Shown here one piece after another: positions 7,217 to 35,323 of a DNA stretch of 64,000 nucleotides. Each line of letters starts with the position of its first letter. Position 1 is the stretch's first letter. Both the position numbers and the translations under genes were made by a program. The stretch lies in NCBI RefSeq assembly GCF_900250115.1, contig NZ_LT984803.1, positions 2,197,583 through 2,261,582 on the forward strand, given 5' to 3'. The DNA comes from Cupriavidus taiwanensis (GTDB taxonomy: Bacteria; Pseudomonadota; Gammaproteobacteria; Burkholderiales; Burkholderiaceae). The notes beneath the pieces were generated by a model. That model saw nothing but the letters and a program-made list of their open reading frames with translations, did not search any database and was not told the origin of the DNA.

Positions 7217-8821
7217 ATGCACAGCCTTCCCACCCCGATCCAGCCCCCCGGCCGCGCCGCCCTGCTCGCCACCCTGGAGCGCGAGCCGCGCTGGGACGTG
7301 ATCGTCATCGGCGGCGGCGCCACCGGCCTGGGCACCGCGGTCGATGCCGCCTCGCGCGGCTACCGCACGCTGCTGGTCGAAGCCGCCGACTTTGCCAAGG
7401 GCACCTCGAGCAAGGCCACCAAGCTGGTGCACGGCGGCGTGCGCTACCTGGCGCAGGGCAATATCAGCCTGGTGCGCGAGGCGCTGCACGAGCGCGGCCT
7501 GCTGACGCGCAACGCGCCACACCTGGTGTGGCCGCTGGGCTTCGTGGTACCGGCCTACCAGATGTTCGACCAGCCCTTCTACGGCATCGGCCTCAAGCTC
7601 TATGACATGCTGGCCGGCAGCCTCAACCTGTCCGGCAGCCGCTGGCTGAACCACCGCGAAGTGCTGGCCGCCGCGCCCAACCTGGCCGAACACGTCGGCG
7701 GGCGACCGCTGCGCGGCGGCAACCTTTACTTCGACGGCCAGTTCGACGATGCGCGGCTGGCGGTGGCGCTGATGCGGACGCTGTTCGATGTCGGCGGCAC
7801 CGCGCTCAACTACATGCGCGCGACCGGGCTGAGCCAGCAAGGCGGCGTGATCAGCGGCGTGACGGTACAGGACGTGCTCGGTGGCGCCACCTTCCGGCTG
7901 CGCGCCGACTGCGTGATCAACGCCACCGGCGTGTGGGTCGATGCCATCCGCCAGATGGAAGACGGGCATGCCCGCACCATGGTCGCGCCCAGCCAGGGCG
8001 TGCATCTGACGCTGCCGCGCAGCTTCCTGCCGGGCGACCGCGCCATCCTGATTCCCAAGACCGACGATGGCCGGGTGCTGTTCGTGGTGCCCTGGAACGG
8101 CCACACCATCGTCGGCACCACCGACACGCCGCGCCGCGACCTGCCGCTGGAGCCCGACGCCGGCGCCGACGATGTCGATTTCATCCTGGAAACGGCGTCG
8201 CGCTACCTGGCCAAGGACCCGACCCGCGCCGACGTCACCAGCGTCTGGGCCGGCCTGCGGCCGCTGGTGCGGGCCACCGGCGAAGCCTCCACCGCGTCGC
8301 TGTCTCGCGAGCATACGATCCTGGTGTCCAGGGCCGGGCTGATCACCGTCACCGGGGGCAAATGGACCACCTACCGCAAGATGGCCGAAGACGTGATCGA
8401 GACCGCGATCCAGCGCCAGATGGTGCGCGCGGCGCCCTGCGTCACCGCGGAGCTGCCGCTGCATGGCGCCGCCGGGCTGCCGGCCGACCTGCCGCCGCCG
8501 GATTCGGGTTCGCCGGACCGCTACTACGGCAACGAGCTGGGCCTGCTGCGCGCGCTGCCGGGACACGAGCGGATGCTCGCCGGGGTATCGGGCCTGACCG
8601 AGGCCCATGTGCGCTTTGCCGCCCGGCATGAGCTGGCGCGCCGGGTCGAGGACGTGCTGGCGCGCCGCAACCGCGCGCTGTTCCTGGACGCCCGCGCCGC
8701 CGTCGCGGCGGCACCGGCGGTGGCAGCGATCCTGGCCGAAGAGCTCGCCGAGGATGAAGCCTGGCAAGCCCATGAGGTGGAGAGCTTCCGCGCGCTCGCC
8801 GCCGGCTACATGCTCGGCTGA
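7217..8821 (+). CDS. glpD: Aerobic glycerol-3-phosphate dehydrogenase
   Basis: FAD-dependent peripheral inner-membrane enzyme oxidising sn-glycerol-3-phosphate to dihydroxyacetone phosphate and passing electrons to ubiquinone. The length of 534 residues is normal. The N-terminal dinucleotide-binding motif is VIGGGATGLGTAVDAASRG (30-48), followed by the family signature GTSSKATKLVHGGVRYL. A C-terminal domain with AARHELARRVEDVLARRNR matches the DAO_C extension. It follows glpK on the same strand, completing glycerol entry into lower glycolysis. Confidence 0.97.
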   Translation: MHSLPTPIQPPGRAALLATLEREPRWDVIVIGGGATGLGTAVDAASRGYRTLLVEAADFAKGTSSKATKLVHGGVRYLAQGNISLVREALHERGLLTRNAPHLVWPLGFVVPAYQMFDQPFYGIGLKLYDMLAGSLNLSGSRWLNHREVLAAAPNLAEHVGGRPLRGGNLYFDGQFDDARLAVALMRTLFDVGGTALNYMRATGLSQQGGVISGVTVQDVLGGATFRLRADCVINATGVWVDAIRQMEDGHARTMVAPSQGVHLTLPRSFLPGDRAILIPKTDDGRVLFVVPWNGHTIVGTTDTPRRDLPLEPDAGADDVDFILETASRYLAKDPTRADVTSVWAGLRPLVRATGEASTASLSREHTILVSRAGLITVTGGKWTTYRKMAEDVIETAIQRQMVRAAPCVTAELPLHGAAGLPADLPPPDSGSPDRYYGNELGLLRALPGHERMLAGVSGLTEAHVRFAARHELARRVEDVLARRNRALFLDARAAVAAAPAVAAILAEELAEDEAWQAHEVESFRALAAGYMLG

Positions 8822-24023: not shown

Positions 24024-25547
24024 ATGACCGTCATCAAGCAAGAAGACCTCATCCAGAGCGTCGCCGACTCCCTGCAGTACATCAGCTACTACCACCCGAT
24101 GGACTACATCACCAGCCTGGGCCGCGCCTATGAGCTGGAGCAGAGCCCGGCGGCCAAGGACGCGATCGCGCAGATCCTGACCAACAGCCGCATGTGCGCG
24201 GAAGGCAAGCGCCCGATCTGCCAGGACACCGGCATCGTCACGGTCTTCGTCAAGGTTGGCATGGACGTGCGCTGGGACGGCGCCACCATGGGCCTGACCG
24301 ACATGATCAACGAGGGTGTGCGCCGCGGTTACACGCACCCGGACAACGTGCTGCGCGCCTCGATCGTCAGCCCGCCCGAAGGCGGCCGCAAGAACACCAA
24401 GGACAACACCCCGGCCGTGATCCACTACGAAGTGGTGCCGGGCAACACCGTCGACATCCAGGTCGCGGCCAAGGGCGGCGGCTCGGAGAACAAGTCCAAG
24501 TTCGTGATGCTGAACCCGTCGGACTCGATCGTCGACTGGGTGCTGAAGACCGTGCCGACCATGGGCGCCGGCTGGTGCCCGCCGGGCATGCTGGGCATCG
24601 GCATCGGCGGCACCGCCGAGAAGGCGATGGTGATGGCCAAGGAATCGCTGATGGAGTCCATCGACATCCAGGACATCATCGCGCGCGGCCCGAAGGACTG
24701 GGTCGAGGAGCTGCGCGTCGAGCTGTACGAGAAGGTTAACGCGCTCGGCATCGGCGCACAGGGCCTGGGCGGCCTGGCCACCGTGCTCGACGTCAAGATC
24801 ATGGCCTGCCCGACGCACGCCGCGTCCAAGCCGGTGGCGATGATCCCCAACTGCGCCGCCACCCGCCACGTGCACTTCACGCTGGACGGCAGCGGTCCGG
24901 CCAAGCTGGAAGCGCCGGACCTGTCGCAATGGCCGAAGGTCGAGTGGGCACCCAACACCGAGACCTCCAAGCGCGTCGACCTGGACACGCTGACGCCGGA
25001 AGAAGTCGCCTCGTGGAAGCCGGGCCAGACCCTGCTGCTCAACGGCAAGATGCTGACCGGCCGCGACGCCGCGCACAAGCGCATCGCCGACATGCTGGCC
25101 AAGGGCGAGAAGCTGCCGGTGGACTTCAAAAATCGCGTGATCTACTACGTCGGGCCGGTCGATCCGGTGCGCGACGAGGCGGTCGGCCCGGCCGGCCCCA
25201 CCACCGCCACGCGCATGGACAAGTTCACCGAGATGATGCTGGCCGAGACCGGCCTGATCTCGATGATCGGCAAGGCCGAGCGCGGCCCGGCGGCGATCGA
25301 GGCGATCAAGAAGCACAAGTCGGCCTACCTGATGGCCGTGGGCGGCGCCGCCTACCTTGTGGCCAAGGCGATCAAGGAAGCCAGGGTGGTCGGCTTCGAA
25401 GACCTGGGCATGGAAGCCATCTACGAGTTCGAGGTCAAGGACATGCCGGTGACGGTCGCCGTGGACAGCGAAGGCACCTCGGTGCACAAGACCGGCCCGG
25501 CGGAATGGCAGGCCAAGATCGGCAAGATTCCGGTCGCCGCGCTGTAA
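24024..25547 (+). CDS. Class I fumarate hydratase (iron-sulfur)
   Basis: Interconverts fumarate and L-malate in the TCA cycle. This 507-residue protein is the oxygen-sensitive 4Fe-4S type (FumA/FumB-like), with cysteines in RPICQDTGIVT, GAGWCPPGMLG and PNCAATRHVHF that can be the cluster ligands. The N-terminal alpha-domain and C-terminal beta-domain are fused in one chain, as in E. coli FumA. It stands alone: a terminator precedes it and a repeat follows. As an iron-using TCA enzyme it is a typical target of iron-sparing regulation, but no such site is seen here. Confidence 0.95.
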   Translation: MTVIKQEDLIQSVADSLQYISYYHPMDYITSLGRAYELEQSPAAKDAIAQILTNSRMCAEGKRPICQDTGIVTVFVKVGMDVRWDGATMGLTDMINEGVRRGYTHPDNVLRASIVSPPEGGRKNTKDNTPAVIHYEVVPGNTVDIQVAAKGGGSENKSKFVMLNPSDSIVDWVLKTVPTMGAGWCPPGMLGIGIGGTAEKAMVMAKESLMESIDIQDIIARGPKDWVEELRVELYEKVNALGIGAQGLGGLATVLDVKIMACPTHAASKPVAMIPNCAATRHVHFTLDGSGPAKLEAPDLSQWPKVEWAPNTETSKRVDLDTLTPEEVASWKPGQTLLLNGKMLTGRDAAHKRIADMLAKGEKLPVDFKNRVIYYVGPVDPVRDEAVGPAGPTTATRMDKFTEMMLAETGLISMIGKAERGPAAIEAIKKHKSAYLMAVGGAAYLVAKAIKEARVVGFEDLGMEAIYEFEVKDMPVTVAVDSEGTSVHKTGPAEWQAKIGKIPVAAL

Positions 25548-33170: not shown

Positions 33171-33521
33171 TCAGTCGCGCCATTTGCCGTGGCCGTGGCC
33201 ATGTCCATGGCCACGGTGATAGCCCGGGGGGCCGTAGTAGCCGCGATGGCCGCCGTAATACCGCGGCGGGCCGTAATAGCCGGGACCATAGTAAACCGGG
33301 CGCGGGCGAACCACCACCGCCGGCGGGCCGTAGTACACCGGAGCCGGCGCCACTACGACCGGCGGCGGGCCATAGTAGGCCGGAGCGGGCGGATAATACG
33401 CCGGCGCACCGATCACCACGCCCGGAACGCCGACGGAGACACCGACACTCACATGGGCCATGGCTGCGCCAGACGCCAACCCGGCGGCAATACCGAATGC
33501 TGCAAGCCACCAACGTTTCAT
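33171..33521 (-). CDS. Exported Gly/Tyr/Pro-rich protein with His-rich tail
   Basis: A 116-residue exported protein of low complexity. The signal peptide is about residues 1-22 (ending GAAMAH). Short PxYYGPP-type repeats (APAYYGPP, PVYYGPP, RGYYGPPG) fill the middle, and the end alternates Gly and His (HRGHGHGHGHGKWRD), suggesting metal binding. Such proteins are annotated in Burkholderiales as PXPV- or YXPPX-repeat proteins; the role is unknown. A near-perfect inverted repeat lies 75 bases upstream of its start. Confidence 0.7.
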   Translation of the reverse strand: MKRWWLAAFGIAAGLASGAAMAHVSVGVSVGVPGVVIGAPAYYPPAPAYYGPPPVVVAPAPVYYGPPAVVVRPRPVYYGPGYYGPPRYYGGHRGYYGPPGYHRGHGHGHGHGKWRD

Positions 33522-33595
33522 ATCCGCCTCTCAAAGTGGGATGTCTCGTAACCCATATTGTAGGGGTTCGGAATTTTCCAGGTGCAACGGCGCAC

Positions 33596-33626
33596 ACGAC
33601 ATTGTTACCAGCCGTAACAGTGTCGT
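33596..33626. promoter_or_regulatory. Inverted repeat upstream of the Gly/Tyr/His-rich gene
   Basis: ACGACATTGTTAC and GTAACAGTGTCGT are a 13-base inverted repeat with one mismatch, separated by CAGCC. It lies about 75 bases before the divergent minus-strand gene and has no T tract, so it is more like an operator than a terminator. No regulator is identified. Confidence 0.5.
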
Positions 33627-33760
33627 CACTTTTCGCTTGAGACGGGCCTGAGGGTGTCGGCGCGCGCCCTCCCCTTCCGTCTCAGTAGCAGCTTGCATCC
33701 GGGATGCGGAGCCACCACAATATCGGGCTTGCCGCGCGCTGCAGCAACCTTGCCTGGTAT

Positions 33761-33776
33761 GTTCCCGGCCGGGAAC
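33761..33776. promoter_or_regulatory. 16-base palindrome before tRNA-Leu
   Basis: GTTCCCGGCCGGGAAC is a perfect palindrome ending 13 bases before the 5' end of tRNA-Leu. It overlaps the expected promoter region (a TATGTT stands at 33758), so it could be a regulatory or structural element. No function is known to me. Confidence 0.45.
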
Positions 33777-33789
33777 AGGCAGCGCTCGC

Positions 33790-34098
33790 GCCCGAGTGGT
33801 GAAATCGGTAGACACAAGGGACTTGAACAATTTGAGCCTTCGGGGGGAAACGCCCGAAGTGACGCCCGTCAAATTCGGCGAACGCCCTGGATGCATGGCA
33901 TCCGAGCCAACGCCGAGCCAAGCCCATCCGCATGGTTGGGAAGGTGTAGAGAGCAGACGGCGGGCACCTACGGCCGCGAGGCTATGGTGAAGGCGTGCTC
34001 CAGCCCACGAACAGCGTCCGCGCTGGCGGCGAAAGCCGAAGCGGGAAGAAAATCCCTCGCCGCAAGGCGTGCCGGTTCGATTCCGGCCTCGGGCACCA
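33790..34098 (+). tRNA. tRNA-Leu (UAA) interrupted by a group I intron
   Basis: The 5' exon (33790-33824) and the 3' exon (34049-34098) join to an 85-base class II tRNA with acceptor GCCCGAG/CTCGGGC, discriminator A and encoded CCA. The joined anticodon stem is AGGGA/TCCCT and the loop CTTAAAA, so the anticodon is UAA. The intron splits the loop after U34, i.e. inside the anticodon. The long variable arm (CTCGCCGCAAGGCGT) and T loop (GTTCGATTC) are in the 3' exon. No promoter is clear. Confidence 0.93.
33825..34048 (+). other. Group I self-splicing intron (IC3-like) in tRNA-Leu(UAA)
   Basis: A 224-base intron. It starts after a U and ends in G, as group I introns do. The conserved P7 pairs as GAGCA (33951-33955) with TGCTC (33996-34000); P4 as TTCGGCG (33874-33880) with CGCCGAG (33911-33917); P5 as GGATGC-ATG-GCATCC; P6 as a CCCA/TGGG hairpin; P8 as CACC/GGTG (33965-33989) capped by a GCGA loop; P9 as CGCT/AGCG with an inner GGC-GAAA-GCC. 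Unpaired stretches such as CAAATTCGGCGAA and GAAGGTGTAGAGA agree with the Azoarcus tRNA-Ile intron. It has no reading frame for a homing endonuclease. Boundaries are inferred from the tRNA cloverleaf. Confidence 0.92.
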
Positions 34099-34177
34099 AT
34101 CCGCACTTGCCACCCTTTGCATGGCGGCGACACGGGCCGCTGGTCACTGCTGGCGGCGGCCAGAATTACGGCAATAC

Positions 34178-34207
34178 AAAAAGGGGGCCATCGCCCCCCT
34201 TTTTTTG
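34178..34207. terminator. Bidirectional terminator between tRNA-Leu and YeiH-like gene
   Basis: GGGGG and CCCCC with a CCATCG loop are flanked by A5 and a T7 run, so it can work in both directions for the convergent tRNA and transporter gene. Confidence 0.88.
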
Positions 34208-34228
34208 CCTGGCTCCGGACCGCGCCGG

Positions 34229-35323
34229 TCACGCCATCACATAGCACATCAGCGCCCCCACCCCCATCAGGAACACAAACAGCACCCCGGCCAATGCCAG
34301 CGGCTTGCGGCCGGCGCGCACCAGGTCGCCGATGCGGGTGTGCAGGCCGATCGCCAGCATCGCGCAGGCCAGCAGCCAGTTGTCGAACGCAATCAGCGGC
34401 GCCTTCCAGTCAGCGGGCACGGCACCCGCCGAGTTGACCGCCATCACCGCGACAAAGCCCACCGCGAACCACGGCACCGACTTCATGATGCCGCGCAGGC
34501 GGCCAGCACCGGCGCCGGACTGGGCTTGCTGCGAGCCGCCCTGCGGCCACAGCGCCATCACCAGCAGCAGCGGGCCCAGGGCCAGCACGCGCACCATCTT
34601 GGCCACCACGGCGGCGTCGGCGGTCGGCTCGCTGATCATCTTGCCGGCCGCGATCACTTGGGCCACCTCGTGCAGCGTCGCGCCGGTGAAGATGCCGAAC
34701 ATGCGCTCGCTCACGGCCCAGTGCCAGTGGCCGGTGGCCAGTTCGTACAGGTAGGGATAGAGCAGCATGCCGACGGTACCGAACAGCACCACCGTCGCCA
34801 CCGCCACGGCGGTCTGCTTGTCGTCGGTGCGCACCACCGACGACACCGCGATGGCCGCGGCCGCGCCGCAGATGGCACTGCCGGAGCTGACCAGGATCGC
34901 CTCGCGGCGGCTCAGGCCGAACCAGGCCGTGCCCACCCAGGTGCCAAACAGCAGCGTGGCGGCCAGCATGGTCAGGGGCACCGCGATACCCGGCAGGCCC
35001 AGCGCCACGATCGAGGCGAAGGTTAGGCGCAGGCCGTACAGCGCCACGCCCAGCCGCAGCAGGTGGTGTCGCGCCACCTGCATGCCGGGGGCCAGCGGCG
35101 CCAGCCAGTGACGCGGCAGCGTATTGGCCGCGACCATGCCGGCGCACATGGCCAGCGTCAGCGCGCTGAGACCATAGCGCGATACCGCCGGGTGCTCGGC
35201 CAGCGCAATCGCCAGCCACGCGATGCCGCCCAGCGGGAGCAGCGTGAGCAAGCGCTGCGACCAGGGCGGCGGCAAGGCCGGCGCGGCGGTTGGAGTGGTG
35301 CGGGGGCTTGAGACGGAAGACAT
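34229..35323 (-). CDS. YeiH-family putative sulfate exporter
   Basis: A 364-residue inner-membrane protein with ten to eleven helices, UPF0324/YeiH family. The characteristic GSAICGAAAAIAVSSVVRTD stands at about residues 149-168, and GIFTGATLHEVAQVIAAG follows. Family members are described as possible sulfate exporters, though the substrate is not proven. It diverges from a LysR-type gene with a shared promoter, as E. coli yeiH does from yeiE. Confidence 0.85.
   Translation of the reverse strand: MSSVSSPRTTPTAAPALPPPWSQRLLTLLPLGGIAWLAIALAEHPAVSRYGLSALTLAMCAGMVAANTLPRHWLAPLAPGMQVARHHLLRLGVALYGLRLTFASIVALGLPGIAVPLTMLAATLLFGTWVGTAWFGLSRREAILVSSGSAICGAAAAIAVSSVVRTDDKQTAVAVATVVLFGTVGMLLYPYLYELATGHWHWAVSERMFGIFTGATLHEVAQVIAAGKMISEPTADAAVVAKMVRVLALGPLLLVMALWPQGGSQQAQSGAGAGRLRGIMKSVPWFAVGFVAVMAVNSAGAVPADWKAPLIAFDNWLLACAMLAIGLHTRIGDLVRAGRKPLALAGVLFVFLMGVGALMCYVMA

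Follow-up and report, generated by a model that had tools for sequence, protein, structure and literature searches.

A split tRNA-Leu(UAA) gene of Cupriavidus taiwanensis as a probable domesticated cargo of tRNA-breaking integrative elements

The window analyzed here, a 64,000-nt stretch of Cupriavidus taiwanensis DNA, carries a tRNA-Leu(UAA) gene that is split by a 224-nt group I intron. In most other Cupriavidus genomes a continuous tRNA-Leu(UAA) gene was found instead, and the split-gene genomes form one clade and several separate branches. In relatives, the same locus harbors an integrative element, which is flanked by the two halves of the host tRNA gene and encodes an integrase as well as a complete, split tRNA of the same isoacceptor. 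On the basis of these sequence comparisons, we regard it as probable that the window gene is a domesticated, element-borne replacement tRNA and that its intron, inserted within the attachment core, served as a shield.

The split gene and its intron

In intron mode, ARAGORN reported a tRNA-Leu(taa) at 33790–34098 with the 224-nt intron at 33825–34048 and the junctions GACTT/intron/AAAAT. The junction lies after U34, where an initial annotation made from the letters alone had put it. As foreseen there, removal of the 224 bases restores a class II tRNA-Leu: the joined exons form an 85-mer with the complete class II tRNA-Leu(UAA) fold, a long variable arm, and an encoded CCA. Without the intron mode, no tRNA was called by ARAGORN at 33790–34098, in line with the expectation that a default tRNA finder misses the gene. 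The features of the locus are listed below.

33691–33738, + strand: upstream end of the region common to continuous-gene genomes, presumed tRNA promoter region; homology ends at 33738 (flank comparison, e.g., L063, L061, L054)
33739–34177, + strand: stretch swapped in comparison with the continuous-gene genome G045, 439 nt in the window and 131 nt in G045 (collinearity comparison)
33790–33824, + strand: 5′ exon of tRNA-Leu(UAA), ending at U34 (ARAGORN intron mode)
33820–33836, + strand: P1, exon GACUU/intron GAA with UUUGAG, U34-G wobble (by eye)
33825–34048, + strand: group I intron, 224 nt, final base G (ARAGORN, cmscan, covariation)
33838–33859, + strand: P2 hairpin, loop with GAAA (by eye)
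33864–33870, + strand: P3 5′ strand, with the 3′ strand at 33959–33965 (hand-drawn alignment)
33875–33916, + strand: P4-P5 domain, P4 33875–33880 with 33911–33916, P5 33887–33894 with 33898–33906 (hand-drawn alignment)
33917–33945, + strand: P6 (hand-drawn alignment)
33951–33955, + strand: P7 5′ strand GAGCA, guanosine site, with the 3′ strand TGCTC at 33996–34000 (two-sided changes in 3/5 pairs)
33966–33988, + strand: P8 with GNRA loop (hand-drawn alignment)
34005–34048, + strand: P9 region with GGC-GAAA-GCC hairpin (by eye)
34049–34098, + strand: 3′ exon, from A35 to the encoded CCA (ARAGORN intron mode)
34179–34206, + strand: terminator-like stem and T run; related sequence in some continuous-gene genomes (read from sequence)
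34229–35323, − strand: YeiH-type protein (PF03601) adjoining the tRNA locus, used as tree marker (profile match); YeiH is the name that we presume for this PF03601 protein

The search with Infernal proposed in the initial annotation (cmscan, E up to 1) gave a single match in 33300–34600, which was RF00028 over the full model length (36.5 bits, E 2.2e-7; below the Rfam gathering score of 50). The P7 pairing of GAGCA with TGCTC and the final intron base G were read as they had been described, and a U-G wobble (U34-G) was present at the 5′ splice site. When P3–P8 and P7 were drawn by hand on 14 related introns, one of them located in a tRNA-Arg(CCU), 13 pairs had changed on both sides, including three of the five P7 pairs. 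In this core, 98.3% of the cells were paired, a value reached by none of 500 shuffles and compared with 27%–41% in slid registers; since the structure was partly derived from the same 14 introns, these figures are biased in its favor. P4, P5, P8, and P9, all named in the initial annotation, were recovered as well, P4-P5 and P8 in the hand-drawn alignment and P9 as a hairpin seen by eye. With 224 nt, the intron is too small to hold a homing endonuclease. By analogy with group I introns of other tRNA genes, it should splice itself out using guanosine.

The genome (7.0 Mb, three contigs) contained one RF00028 match and 66 tRNA matches. Among the 15 of these 66 that were read (the 13 as long as a class II tRNA and two weak matches), the leucine anticodons were CAG (three times), TAG, CAA, and GAG, and TAA did not occur. 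A pattern covering uninterrupted genes for either UAA or CAA retrieved only the CAA gene. The split gene is thus apparently the sole UUA-reading tRNA gene, as had been suspected, and because no other UAA-Leu gene was found, a loss of splicing would be expected to abolish UUA decoding. It is highly improbable that the split gene is a dead pseudogene and UUA is read by another tRNA; the RF00028 score under the gathering threshold and the reading of 15 out of 66 tRNA matches would leave room for such a view, but the exons are complete, the core pairs are conserved with compensatory changes, and the same state was found in nine genomes. The interpretation given in the initial annotation is supported; the origin of the gene was not visible from the material it was based on. 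Two 88-nt tRNA-like genes with a CAT anticodon and a long variable arm were also seen in this genome (G000:C1:2491138–2491222 and G000:C3:473648–473732; L042, L043).

Locus swap and tRNA-breaking elements in Cupriavidus

The comparison across Cupriavidus, likewise proposed at the outset, covered 60 genomes. The split gene was detected by BLAST in full length in 12 of them, and a pattern search retrieved a continuous tRNA-Leu(UAA) gene in 46, of which 45 shared one exon type clearly unlike that of the split gene and one (G047) had another type. None of the 12 split-gene genomes has a continuous tRNA-Leu(UAA) gene. Neither form was found in G012, which is 54% complete, and G029 possesses a gene resembling that of G047 that a single base kept from matching the pattern. 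The notion, drawn from BLAST, that most Cupriavidus genomes are simply without the gene was dropped when the pattern search revealed a continuous gene whose exons are different. One 1.5-Mb replicon (G030:C4; L078, L088) holds both a split tRNA-Leu that is truncated and a spare tRNA-Leu(UAA) of the continuous form.

Flanks were compared for 30 of the 47 places retrieved by the continuous-gene pattern search, and all 30 loci had at least one flank in common with the window. In the case of G045, the sequence is collinear with window positions 24931–45285 and differs only at 33739–34177. In a tree of the neighboring YeiH-type gene (42 rows/genomes), nine clean split-gene genomes, including that of the window, formed one clade (95/89), beside which the continuous-gene genome G045 was placed. 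The split-gene genomes G020, G021, and G006 were located apart from this clade, which suggests more than one arrival of the split gene. The difference in the exons alone was dropped as an argument for an invading split gene, as the arm GGTAGACACAAGGGACTTAAAATCCCTCG is frequent in continuous genes of Burkholderiales among the matches listed; the polarity was therefore settled by the tree.

In G021, the continuous gene is broken into nt 1–43 (L265:8613–8655) and nt 33–87 (L341:17741–17795), which are separated by 61.8 kb on one contig. From left to right, the native nt 1–43 are followed after approximately 160 nt by a complete split tRNA-Leu(UAA), genes of the IS481, UvrD, and OLD types, TrbI, and genes of the VirB8/TrbF and TrbL types; the right end comprises a tyrosine integrase (PF00589) and the native nt 33–87, behind which the yeiH-type gene is located. 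The same two element ends are present in G020 on two contigs, and the integrases of both genomes scored over the PF00589 cut-off. The crossover core common to both halves is CTTAAAATC, which corresponds to the anticodon loop and two further bases. The split genes of G020 and G021 are 89% and 92% identical to that of the window, respectively. In G006, a decayed 5′ half is followed by the split gene. A host tRNA gene of the same isoacceptor that is cut at a short core and not rebuilt was seen in G020, in G021, and in the named genomes described below. G029 and G047 show another arrangement, in which the 3′ half of this same broken gene lies beside a continuous tRNA-Leu(UAA) with the core CTTAAAATT.

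Within the nine-genome clade of the window, no tRNA halves and no element were found around the gene; what remains of the locus is the split gene between the conserved upstream region and the terminator-like stem. The route taken in this clade is for that reason one that we infer from its relatives. It might be argued that an ordinary, old tRNA-Leu group I intron was inherited or homed here and that the exons differ owing to homologous gene replacement, elements being uninvolved. The absence of an element from the window clade would agree with this, as would the wide distribution of this kind of intron, which includes cyanobacteria and Bacteroidales; the title of Rudi et al. (2002), as cited in PMC3984707, refers to recombination that involves the entire tRNA-Leu locus. 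We nevertheless consider this explanation improbable, since element, halves, and cargo occur at this very locus in G020 and G021 with split genes closely similar to that of the window, since a decayed half precedes the split gene of G006, and since the tree places a genome with the continuous gene next to the clade of the window.

According to the preferred reading, that of a domesticated replacement tRNA, an integrative element would recombine into the anticodon loop of a continuous host tRNA gene of one isoacceptor, with CTTAAAATC as the core in the case of Leu(UAA). The essential host gene would be cut in half by the element and not rebuilt, and a complete replacement tRNA gene of the same isoacceptor would be carried just inside the left end of the element. 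This replacement gene would be interrupted by the intron exactly within the core, while its spliced RNA would be normal; with the intron inside the core, the replacement DNA would offer no attachment site. In the lineage of the window, the element and the broken halves would later have been deleted, which would have left the replacement behind the old tRNA promoter of the host, from which it would be expressed as the sole UUA-reading tRNA.

Split genes of a further isoacceptor were observed in this survey. A split tRNA-Leu(CAA) with a C before the 5′ splice site is present in G021 (L077:2001–2321) and at L097, L310, L313–L314, L316–L320, and L322–L325; by our own reading, its P1 pair at the splice site is C-G and not the usual U-G. 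The pattern search retrieved neither a continuous UAA nor a continuous CAA gene in G021. In G016 (L017, contig C40), an orphan tRNA-Leu(CAA) 3′ half and a second match are separated by about 15.5 kb, an arrangement that ordinary tRNA-rebuilding islands would be expected to produce.

Orphan tRNA halves beyond the genus

A pattern search in named genomes yielded at least 120 stretches with a split tRNA-Leu and an intron core from alpha-, beta-, and gammaproteobacteria, cyanobacteria, Bacteroidales, and others. ARAGORN reported a split tRNA in 116 of the 120 named loci among the matches listed, some of them misplaced or misnamed. At 20 of these 116 loci, an orphan tRNA-Leu 5′ half was present upstream on the same strand, with a spacing between half and split gene of 111–198 bp in 14 cases and 1437–1498 bp in six. 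Such a half was found in none of 120 reversed loci and, with flanks of 1.5 kb, in none of 60 loci of continuous genes (Fisher p 2e-4, which is only a guide, because the named sample is not random and its sequences are related). Among these controls, a 3′ half is present at L049 in G047, a locus of the other element type. At 95 of the 116 named split loci among the matches listed, no orphan 5′ half was found, with 1.5 kb upstream in view for 88 of the 116 only; at one of the other 21, the half points the opposite way. Four loci (L170, L206, L207, L262) were left out of the count of halves, since their split tRNA went undetected by ARAGORN and was itself what the half search had hit. L147, where the half has the opposite orientation, and L166, where a 3′ half lies on the other strand, were not counted as support; L174 was counted, although its half does not reach the loop and its cargo is called Phe by ARAGORN. 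L142 and the names Ser and Phe given by ARAGORN among the named loci are unsure. In the smaller samples, the 5′ half was detected at 2 of 13 split loci of the genus, 3 of 21 of the family, and 1 of 36 of the order. As halves occur at few split loci, many split genes may be old and now unconnected with elements. The cases with a 5′ half span alpha-, beta-, and gammaproteobacteria for Leu(UAA); those for Leu(CAA) and Ile(CAU) are from Burkholderiales.

In all six loci with the 1.4-kb gap, the gap is filled by an open reading frame of one recombinase-like family, and two further named loci have such a frame without a half. The two frames that were read encode 434 and 449 amino acids; PF00589 was below the cut-off in one (L177), and the other (L181) gave only a weak match to an integrase N-terminus. 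Profile HMMs seeded from Caulobacterales recognized open reading frames in eight of the 120 named loci among the matches listed, and in none of 29 order, 21 family, and 60 continuous-gene loci. With HMMs seeded from the integrases of G020 and G021, no relative was found in the named loci, which span 8 kb each and may end short of the integrase.

The 3′-half pattern was present in 8 of the 20 flagged genomes. One match was an intact tRNA, and seven were 3′ halves by their context. For five of the seven, the contig is equally long as that of the split gene and the strand is the same, and the distance between the halves ranges from about 14 to 66 kb; these are Lysobacter concretionis, Pseudomonas jinjuensis, and metagenome-assembled genomes (MAGs) of Devosia, Rhodanobacter, and an alphaproteobacterium. 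Both halves were available in nine sets, Cupriavidus included; when the halves of seven sets were joined at the core, a tRNA-Leu(taa) was obtained in all seven. The acceptor stem of the joined halves paired at seven of seven positions in six sets and at six of seven in one, and mismatched joins gave seven of seven in 9 of 42 cases. In the Devosia MAG (L192, minus strand, near 7561–7595), the left-end 5′ half continues into a T-arm and CCA and is not accepted as a tRNA by ARAGORN; this element may supply a 3′ end and perhaps form a partly rebuilt gene. At L347, the 3′ half holds 14 more tRNA bases before the core.

The match of isoacceptors extends to other tRNAs. For split tRNA-Leu(CAA), 12 loci of the family were read; upstream halves were found at three of them, and all three halves are themselves CAA (CTCAAAA). 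A further 36 split loci, mostly not Leu, included four split tRNA-Ile(CAU) genes with an upstream Ile(CAU) half, two of these four genes being named Ile by our own reading and not by that of ARAGORN. A pattern open to split as well as continuous cargo matched 2 of 399 Burkholderiales genomes, and the cargo was split in both. A split Arg(CCU) gene with an Arg half in the opposite orientation is present in G050. The query R1, the E-values of which are rough, matched 119 of 249 Burkholderiaceae genomes irrespective of the tRNA; the 21 loci that were read are Leu(UAA) in nine cases and Leu(CAA) in 12.

Other observations in Burkholderiales concern group I introns in tRNA-Ser(UGA), tRNA-Thr(UGU), and possibly tRNA-Pro(CGG) (L114, L119, L120, L134, L105). 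A second class of tRNA-Ile(CAU) introns was noted between U33 and C34 (L116, L124, L131, L135, L136, L138). Two wider scans were discarded: the single hit on viral contigs was an unrelated array of intact tRNA genes, and that of a class-wide pattern in 369 genomes was a tandem of intact Cys and Leu tRNA genes.

The intron as a possible attachment-site shield

In all nine sets with both halves, the spliced cargo contains the 9-nt core of the host. Cargo and target agree over the entire 18-nt anticodon arm in three of the nine, so that in these three the intron alone tells the cargo from the target. Six cases of continuous cargo were available for comparison, with the attP cores of the phages assigned by position near the integrase: the core is altered in four (Cheetobro, BrutonGaster, Mollymur, and G029/G047), and OneUp and Cain retain the 9-nt core, the one difference being at the base after it. 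As these two phages keep the core without an intron, an intron is not required and would be one of several ways to the same end. Rumpelstiltskin, Samty, and Smoothie stand outside the six, because their att core could not be assigned; no intron was found in them, and the tRNA-Tyr of Samty lies about 6 kb away. Taken from the sequence comparison, the intron probably shields the replacement tRNA from the same mobile DNA that carries it.

It could be proposed instead that replacement takes place without shielding, the intron being a neutral passenger that was already in a tRNA gene picked up by elements. Continuous cargo works in published phages (PMC10865867) and occurs in G029 and G047, OneUp and Cain retain the 9-nt core intron-free, and such introns are common, as seen from the R1 matches in nearly half of the Burkholderiaceae genomes. 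These points leave the proposal some weight, yet we hold it to be rather unlikely: in at least two element layouts, with the integrase at the right end or a recombinase-like gene between half and cargo, and for three isoacceptors, the cargo is split in or beside the target core, and the exact core is kept by the spliced cargo throughout and lost by most of the continuous cargo.

Intron-containing cargo was also encountered in a phage. Gordonia phage Daredevil (NC_048021.1), for which Gordonia terrae was the isolation host, has an unannotated tRNA-Lys(TTT) at L361:3840–4151, which adjoins the integrase and contains a 238-nt group I intron at U34/U35. The intron was matched by R1 (E 3.6e-19), and no RF00028 match was obtained at E 0.01. 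The attP-like core of Daredevil, GGACTTTTAATCCGC, is identical to its spliced cargo, and the unusual T loop of its tRNA-Lys also occurs in the tRNA-Lys of Cheetobro. In PMC10865867, Daredevil is described as integrating at tRNA-Lys-TTT without rebuilding, having no tRNA of its own, and forming clear plaques. The clear plaques, which look as if lysogeny were unsupported, speak against full function of this tRNA.

Split tRNA-Leu(UAA) genes occur on plasmids as well. Of 72,556 PLSDB plasmid records, 1285 matched, many of them from Escherichia, Klebsiella, and Salmonella. An Acinetobacter plasmid (CP094253.1, L359:2995–3292) carries the split gene near aminoglycoside resistance genes and IS26, and on a Bradyrhizobium plasmid it lies about 750 bp from trbI. 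In a 595-kb uncultured phage (LR756511.1, L362:1368–2154), the tRNA-Leu(UAA) gene is split by a 700-nt intron, in which a 194-codon open stretch shows HNH-like motifs by eye. In BrutonGaster, a gene annotated as tRNA splicing ligase is located near the integration cassette (L365:5895–6260).

Group I introns are found also in the tRNA-Ile of Azoarcus and in tRNA-Arg, and Vepritskiy and co-workers reportedly described a tRNA-Leu(UAA) intron in a gammaproteobacterium in 2002. We know of no accepted functional answer for self-splicing introns in bacterial tRNA anticodon loops. The known bacterial tRNA group I introns (RF00028), which probably belong to subgroup IC3, are like that of the window in the P3–P8 core, the insertion in the anticodon loop, the small size, and the terminal G; the difference is that the introns described here are linked to integrative elements by which that same tRNA gene is destroyed. 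Introns in Ile2 tRNAs of Acidovorax and Burkholderia are mentioned in the tRNAscan-SE 2.0 paper, and those in cyanobacteria, alpha-, and betaproteobacteria in a review. Outside cyanobacteria, tRNA-Leu(UAA) introns are not new as such.

One of the two closest parallels among the papers listed is the tRNA-dependent lysogeny of Guerrero-Bustamante and Hatfull (2024; PMC10865867), which has in common with the present elements a tyrosine integrase, a tRNA core of about 10 bp, the lack of rebuilding, and a carried tRNA of the same isoacceptor. In those actinophages, the replacement tRNA is needed for viable integration. That system comprises actinophages with continuous tRNAs, whereas the elements here are mostly conjugative-type proteobacterial elements whose cargo is split in the core; in the text of the article, the word "intron" occurs once, within the reference list. 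For archaea, Randau and Soll (2008), as cited in PMC3293823, proposed that tRNA introns block attachment sites. This proposal and the Caldiarchaeum model (PMC3293823) share with ours an intron that protects a tRNA attachment site and is brought by a mobile element. Archaeal tRNA introns are removed by an endonuclease; here, the introns are bacterial ribozymes, and both tRNA halves are known for several elements. According to PMC3293823 (2012), there had been no direct evidence until then of a link between introns and attachment, and one case was added. The islands collected by Islander (PMC4383910) also show a crossover in the anticodon loop, a displaced tRNA fragment, and a tyrosine integrase; unlike the elements described here, they normally carry a 3′ fragment that makes the target whole again. 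A fragment of this target-restoring kind, 50 nt from the 3′ part of a Leu tRNA, adjoins the integrase of Acidovorax phage AP1. A literature search that included little of the subscription literature returned, among the matches listed, no title or abstract in which group I introns of bacterial tRNAs are connected to attachment sites or to tRNAs carried by elements.

Since target halves, element, integrase, and split cargo occur together in several genomes, and the split cargo of Daredevil lies beside its integrase, the shield idea is directly testable. We suggest tentatively, and at lower confidence than for the window gene itself, that many of the group I introns in the anticodon loops of proteobacterial tRNAs and of some phage tRNAs may be attachment-site shields or descendants of these, and that domesticated cargo may have spread split sole-copy tRNAs. 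For annotation, the findings mean that tRNA gene prediction and reports of tRNA-less elements can miss split genes, and for the bacteria concerned that the copy brought by an element can take the place of an essential tRNA gene.
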